From an archaeon (GTDB taxonomy: Archaea; Thermoproteota; Nitrososphaeria; Nitrososphaerales; JACAEJ01): a stretch of 46,942 nt of DNA. The stretch lies in assembly GCA_024256285.1 (NCBI GenBank), contig JACGUG010000005.1:1-46942 (forward strand), read 5' to 3'. The notes beneath the pieces were generated by a model. It was not told the DNA's origin and did not search any database. It worked only from the letters and a program-made list of their open reading frames with translations. Shown one piece after another: positions 15,846 through 32,664 of the stretch (position 1 is the stretch's first letter; the number at the start of each line of letters is the position of its first letter). The position numbers were made by a program, and so were the translations under genes.

Positions 15846-15946
15846 GGGCTCGTGGCGCAGCACGGATATGAGGACTGGAAAGCGCGGCAGACTTTTGGCC
15901 GAACCTCCTAAGCTGTAGGTCCGGGGTTCGAATCCCCGCGAGCCCG
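15846..15946 (+). tRNA. tRNA-Arg (CCT) with two apparent 13-nt introns
   Basis: The ends fold as a standard tRNA: acceptor GGGCTCG/CGAGCCC with discriminator G, and T arm CGGGG-TTCGAAT-CCCCG preceded by the variable loop AGGTC. The 101-nt gene is 26 nt too long. Removing 15869-15881 restores a D arm GCGC-AGCACGGATA-GCGC. Removing 15891-15903 restores an anticodon arm GCAGC-CTCCTAA-GCTGT with anticodon CCT at 15907-15909, giving a 75-nt mature tRNA. The insertions fall at about positions 21/22 and 30/31, not the usual 37/38. The first could equally be placed at about 16/17 (15862-15874). I could not draw convincing bulge-helix-bulge motifs by eye. The CCA end is not encoded. Confidence 0.75.
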
Positions 15947-32574: not shown

Positions 32575-32664
32575 GCCGGGGTGGCCGAGCGGTTAGGCGG
32601 CAGGCTGCAGACGGTTCTATGTGTAGAGACCTGCTCTACGCAGGTTCGAATCCTGCCCCCGGCT
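32575..32664 (+). tRNA. tRNA-Cys (GCA) with an 18-nt intron
   Basis: Acceptor GCCGGGG/CCCCGGC with discriminator T (U73, the cysteine identity base), D arm GCC-GAGCGGTTA-GGC, T arm GCAGG-TTCGAAT-CCTGC. The anticodon stem GCAGG/CCTGC closes after an 18-nt insertion. The loop is CTGCAG, intron 32611-32628, then A, giving anticodon GCA with the intron at the canonical 37/38 site. The intron folds as a small hairpin (GGTTCTA against TAGAG-A-CC). CCA is not encoded. The neighbouring divergent gene codes for SepRS, which charges this tRNA. Confidence 0.92.

Follow-up and report, generated by a model that had tools for sequence, protein, structure and literature searches.

A tRNA-Arg(CCT) gene with two short introns at non-canonical sites in an archaeal genome

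The tRNA-Arg(CCT) gene at positions 15846-15946 of the window, the stretch of 46,942 nucleotides of archaeal DNA analysed here, is very probably this genome's gene for the tRNA, interrupted by two short introns of the BHB type, one at 20a/21 and the other at 30/31, which the splicing endonuclease would excise. All parts of this gene given below lie on the forward (+) strand. The gene, its two insertions with their motifs and conservation, and the genes for the endonuclease were all established from sequence.

The coordinates and sequence of the gene, with its two 13-nt insertions, were confirmed. The unspliced gene gave no call with ARAGORN, nor with Rfam RF00005 at the gathering score. When both 13-mers (15868-15880 and 15891-15903) were deleted, ARAGORN reported a tRNA-Arg(cct) of 75 nt in which all four stems (acceptor, D, anticodon and T) are fully paired, with a single G-T pair at 27-43, and which has T33 and the standard bases in its D- and T-loops, as a previous reading of the sequence without database searches (the sequence-only reading) had foreseen. 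Exon 1 (15846-15867) contains the acceptor 5' strand, the D-stem 5' strand and the D-loop to 20a, exon 2 (15881-15890) contains A21, the D-stem 3' strand, G26 and positions 27-30, and exon 3 (15904-15946) runs from position 31 through the anticodon loop CTCCTAA, with the anticodon CCT at 15907-15909, to the T arm, the acceptor 3' strand and the discriminator G; CCA is not encoded. This is the arrangement of archaeal BHB introns, in which a tRNA gene is interrupted and removal of the insertion gives a normal tRNA. An exhaustive search removed every possible single BHB-compatible intron, or pair of them, and scored the product as a cloverleaf. Removal of two introns scored 63 and the best single intron 47, and single-intron parses were rejected on this basis; the better single-intron fold that might have overturned the sequence-only reading was not found. 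Shuffling the internal region gave a best score of 59, and none of 400 shuffles reached 63.

Intron 2 (ACTTTTGGCCGAA, 13 nt, 15891-15903) interrupts the 5' side of the anticodon stem at site 30/31, and its junction is unambiguous. In the archaeal BHB geometry, a run of four exon bases pairs with a run of four intron bases; the exon run stops 2 nt short of the 5' cut and the intron run 2 nt short of the 3' cut. The exonic strand CGGC (positions 25-28, 15885-15888) and the intronic strand GCCG (15898-15901) make a strict BHB of this kind, with a 4-bp central helix between 3-nt bulges. Pairing at the BHB offset is kept across relatives: for introns at 30/31 from several families of the order, spanning 11 to 20 nt, four pairs were present in 16 of 16 distinct sequences, and at other offsets none of the 16 kept four pairs. 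The intronic partner was GCCG, GTCG, GCTG or GTTG (exon CGGC with GYYG). Shuffled introns gave a chance product of ∼7e-31 for this pairing, a value that takes the relatives as independent and is indicative only. The suggestion that 13 nt is close to the shortest length for such introns did not survive, as known archaeal tRNA introns are 11-129 nt with a median of 15 (PMC3218864), a range which includes both introns here (13 and 13 nt), and a relative has an 11-nt intron at the same site.

Considered from its own sequence alone, the junction of intron 1 (ATGAGGACTGGAA, 13 nt, D-loop) slides across several positions. Relatives without the second GG (CTAGAAA in G002 and CCAAAAA in G005), together with intronless relatives whose D-loop is AGCATGGATA, leave two places for it, directly 3' of T20a or directly 3' of A21, and the two cuts give an identical mature RNA. 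Given that the BHB favours 20a/21, the intron was set at 15868-15880. Placement at 15/16, where D-loop introns of the order most often lie, was rejected as it would deprive G002 and G005 of G18 and G19. The exonic strand CGG (17a, 18 and 19; 15863-15865) pairs with the intronic strand CTG (15875-15877), and nine sequences, six from the family plus those of G012, G026 and G008, were compared for this helix. The pair at 17a was T-A in six sequences, C-G in two and T-G in one, that at 18 was G-C or G-T in all nine, and the fourth pair was a mismatch, A.G or A.A, in seven; in G012 and G026 the fourth pair forms and the mismatch shifts to the inner end (G.A). Intron 1 thus lacks the 4-bp central helix, which is required of the strict subclass only, with three of four pairs formed in each of the nine. 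It belongs with the relaxed BHB-like forms, its 3-bp helix persisting in 9/9 through a C-G to T-A change. Covariation was weak, with double changes at one pair and 43 of 500 shuffles scoring as high. Modelling of BHB motifs at both sites, as the sequence-only reading had proposed, yielded two non-canonical introns, one with a strict motif at 30/31 and one with a relaxed motif at 20a/21.

Since the motif is strict at insertion 2 and relaxed at insertion 1, insertion 2 could be the only intron, with insertion 1 retained to give an unusually long D-loop of 23 nt. This is very unlikely. The 10-nt D-loop of intronless tRNA-Arg(CCT) orthologues in the order, for example in G007, G020 and G019, equals the spliced form, other D-loop introns of tRNA-Arg(CCT), at 15/16 in other families, show the same three-of-four helix, and insertion 1 drifts in sequence and in length (12-16 nt) while its flanking exons stay fixed. 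Removal of both insertions remains the preferred reading.

The mismatch in the D-loop introns is recurrent, and is a modest new detail. It was A17.G or A17.A in 7/9 of the 20a/21 introns, and among 18 tabulated introns at 15/16 the pair next to the 3' bulge was G10.A in eight and paired in the other ten. Some endonucleases accept relaxed BHB and bulge-helix-loop substrates (PMC12397907). Intron 1 resembles these in its short, imperfect, loop-closed central helix without an inner helix, and differs in that a purine mismatch recurs at the imperfect pair, beside the 3' bulge. It is conceivable, though doubtful, that the endonucleases of this order accept, and that D-loop introns may favour, a BHB with such a mismatch as a distinct class of relaxed substrate and not as a product of decay.

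The doubly interrupted gene was present in all seven family genomes (G000-G006) searched with the 101-nt query. The sequences from G000 and G001 are identical, leaving six distinct family sequences for comparison. Differences per site among these were 0-0.05 in the exons, 0.33 in intron 1 and 0.17 in intron 2; the varying columns were 2/22 in exon 1, none in exon 2, 2/43 in exon 3 and 8/13 in intron 1. Judged by this comparison, near-invariant exons with freer introns are what a functional tRNA with spliced, weakly constrained introns would show and a pseudogene would not. That the gene is a dead copy which had gathered two insertions, with AGG decoded by another tRNA, is highly improbable. 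Standard finders do miss the gene, and a tRNA-Arg(TCT) is present (L018) which could read AGG by wobble, but the family, pattern and DNA searches through which the genome's tRNA genes were gathered found no second tRNA-Arg(CCT), the sign of a pseudogene named in the sequence-only reading. The gene is moreover kept in seven genomes with its BHB partners maintained, and this conservation largely refutes the explanation. Given BHB or BHB-like motifs at both sites, no better single-intron parse and no second copy found, the refutations set out beforehand failed. An assembly or sequencing artefact, for which the draft state of the genome (118 contigs) might speak, is already refuted by identical architecture with diverged introns in seven separate genomes.

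The genome contains two separate splicing endonuclease genes. The alpha gene product (L107) matches the catalytic subunits of the Aeropyrum and Sulfolobus enzymes (3p1z, 2cv8), keeps GPGIDHAPYLV and RK (the H and K motifs) and has K-P-K where Aeropyrum has K44-P45-R46. The K-P-K/R loop has been tied to a broad substrate range (PMC12397907). The beta gene product (L108) resembles the same endonuclease family and lacks the catalytic histidine at the aligned place, as would be expected of a structural subunit. Both subunits of an alpha2beta2 endonuclease of the broad-specificity type are thus encoded, and would assemble into the tetramer. According to reviews, Thaumarchaeota have alpha2beta2 enzymes, and lineages with them are rich in unusual introns (PMC4090602).

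The GCCG of intron 2 would pair with exonic CGGC to give a 4-bp helix between two bulges, and the CTG of intron 1 with exonic CGG (17a-19) to give the relaxed 3-bp helix, in which the would-be fourth pair is an A.G mismatch. The heterotetrameric enzyme would then cut each bulge and a tRNA ligase would join the exons into a 75-nt tRNA reading AGG. Cleavage and ligation probably proceed in this way, and the introns are probably removed one after the other, since the D-stem under intron 1 and the central helix of intron 2 both require C25. Folded without constraints, the precursor has a minimum-energy structure (-40.5 kcal/mol) other than the cloverleaf. When the acceptor, T and D stems were imposed, the lowest-energy fold (-37.7) contained the helices of both introns, the 3-bp helix of intron 1 forming unforced. 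A distant interaction between GAGG in the first insertion and CCTC of the anticodon loop had also been put forward; it is found only in G000 and G001 and is not conserved, the segment being CGAGA in G002, TGATAA in G003, TAATA in G004, TGAAGA in G005 and TGATA in G006, and was rejected as chance complementarity.

The double intron is typical of this genome, in which at least 27 of the 38 parsed tRNA genes look interrupted, 27 having scored best with at least one intron removed; the parser is unreliable where a gene has three or more introns or a long variable arm (L024, L030, L031 and L033). Several other tRNA genes were noticed. At window positions 32575-32664 (+), a 'tRNA-Ser(aga)' called by ARAGORN is a misreading, the gene being parsed as tRNA-Cys(GCA) with an intron of 18 nt (ACGGTTCTATGTGTAGAG) at the canonical 37/38 site; a near-identical copy is present at G000:C109:40048-40137 (L022). 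A second, quite different intronless tRNA with a GCA anticodon (L005:1501-1573, D-arm GACGGAATCTGGTTACGT) may be a divergent tRNA-Cys or stem from contamination. The tRNA-Val genes L036 (TAC), L037 (CAC) and L039 (GAC) have long insertions of ∼32-39 nt where the D-loop begins, and those of L036 and L037 share sequence, ending TTCGTTCGGGA, which suggests intron copying between isodecoders. The tRNA-Trp(CCA) gene (L038) has two introns, the second of ∼54 nt with GATGATG and CTGA motifs and resembling the box C/D guide RNA known from tRNA-Trp introns of archaea. Relatives of the neighbouring deacetylase-like gene are scattered over many phyla, which makes that gene uninformative about lineage.

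In a survey of 300 genomes of the order, 88 matched the tRNA-Arg(CCT) pattern, including one match (G069) that is evidently not a tRNA. Many members carry an intron at 15/16, and the 3' part of this intron, GCG(A/C/T), pairs with GCGC of the D-stem. Several (G017, G067, G041, G048, G055, G045 and G123) combine introns at 15/16 and 30/31. An extra insertion in the variable arm was seen in L094 and L095 (G026 and G012), L065 (G024), L080, L082 and L083, and the tRNA-Arg(CCT) genes of G012, G026, G024 and G123 each appear to contain three introns, one of them in the variable arm. Archaeal amoA was found in some families of the order, which is accordingly taken to be a Thaumarchaeota order, and the guess at this lineage from sequence alone was borne out. 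A search for amoA in this genome and its family found none, placing the genome outside the ammonia oxidisers in the sample.

The doubly interrupted gene is a well-preserved case of a phenomenon that archaea were already known to show. tRNAscan-SE 2.0 has a separate BHB model for the non-canonical introns of Thaumarchaeota, and up to three introns per tRNA gene are known (PMC8450103). The present introns agree with the Thaumarchaeota ones in kind of insertion, broad lineage, shortness and location outside 37/38; nothing essential differs, this genome being one without amoA. The multi-intron tRNAs of Thermoproteales are alike in having several introns per gene, non-canonical sites and removal by alpha2beta2 enzymes. 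They belong to another lineage and differ in the pair of sites, here 20a/21 with 30/31; tRNA-Pro(UGG) of Pyrobaculum islandicum, for instance, has introns at 25/26, 37/38 and 56/57 (PMC4090602). Listed non-canonical sites include 30/31, and 20/21 in the D-loop (PMC4090602). A site named 20a/21 was not found in the literature, where numbering of D-loop insertions varies between papers.

The gene is a clean case, supported by comparison with relatives, of a doubly interrupted tRNA gene overlooked by ordinary finders. Across one archaeal order this one tRNA, Arg(CCT), holds introns at five sites, namely 15/16, 20a/21, 30/31, 37/38 and the variable arm, a spread that can help in the study of intron gain and of the splicing enzyme's looseness in substrate recognition.
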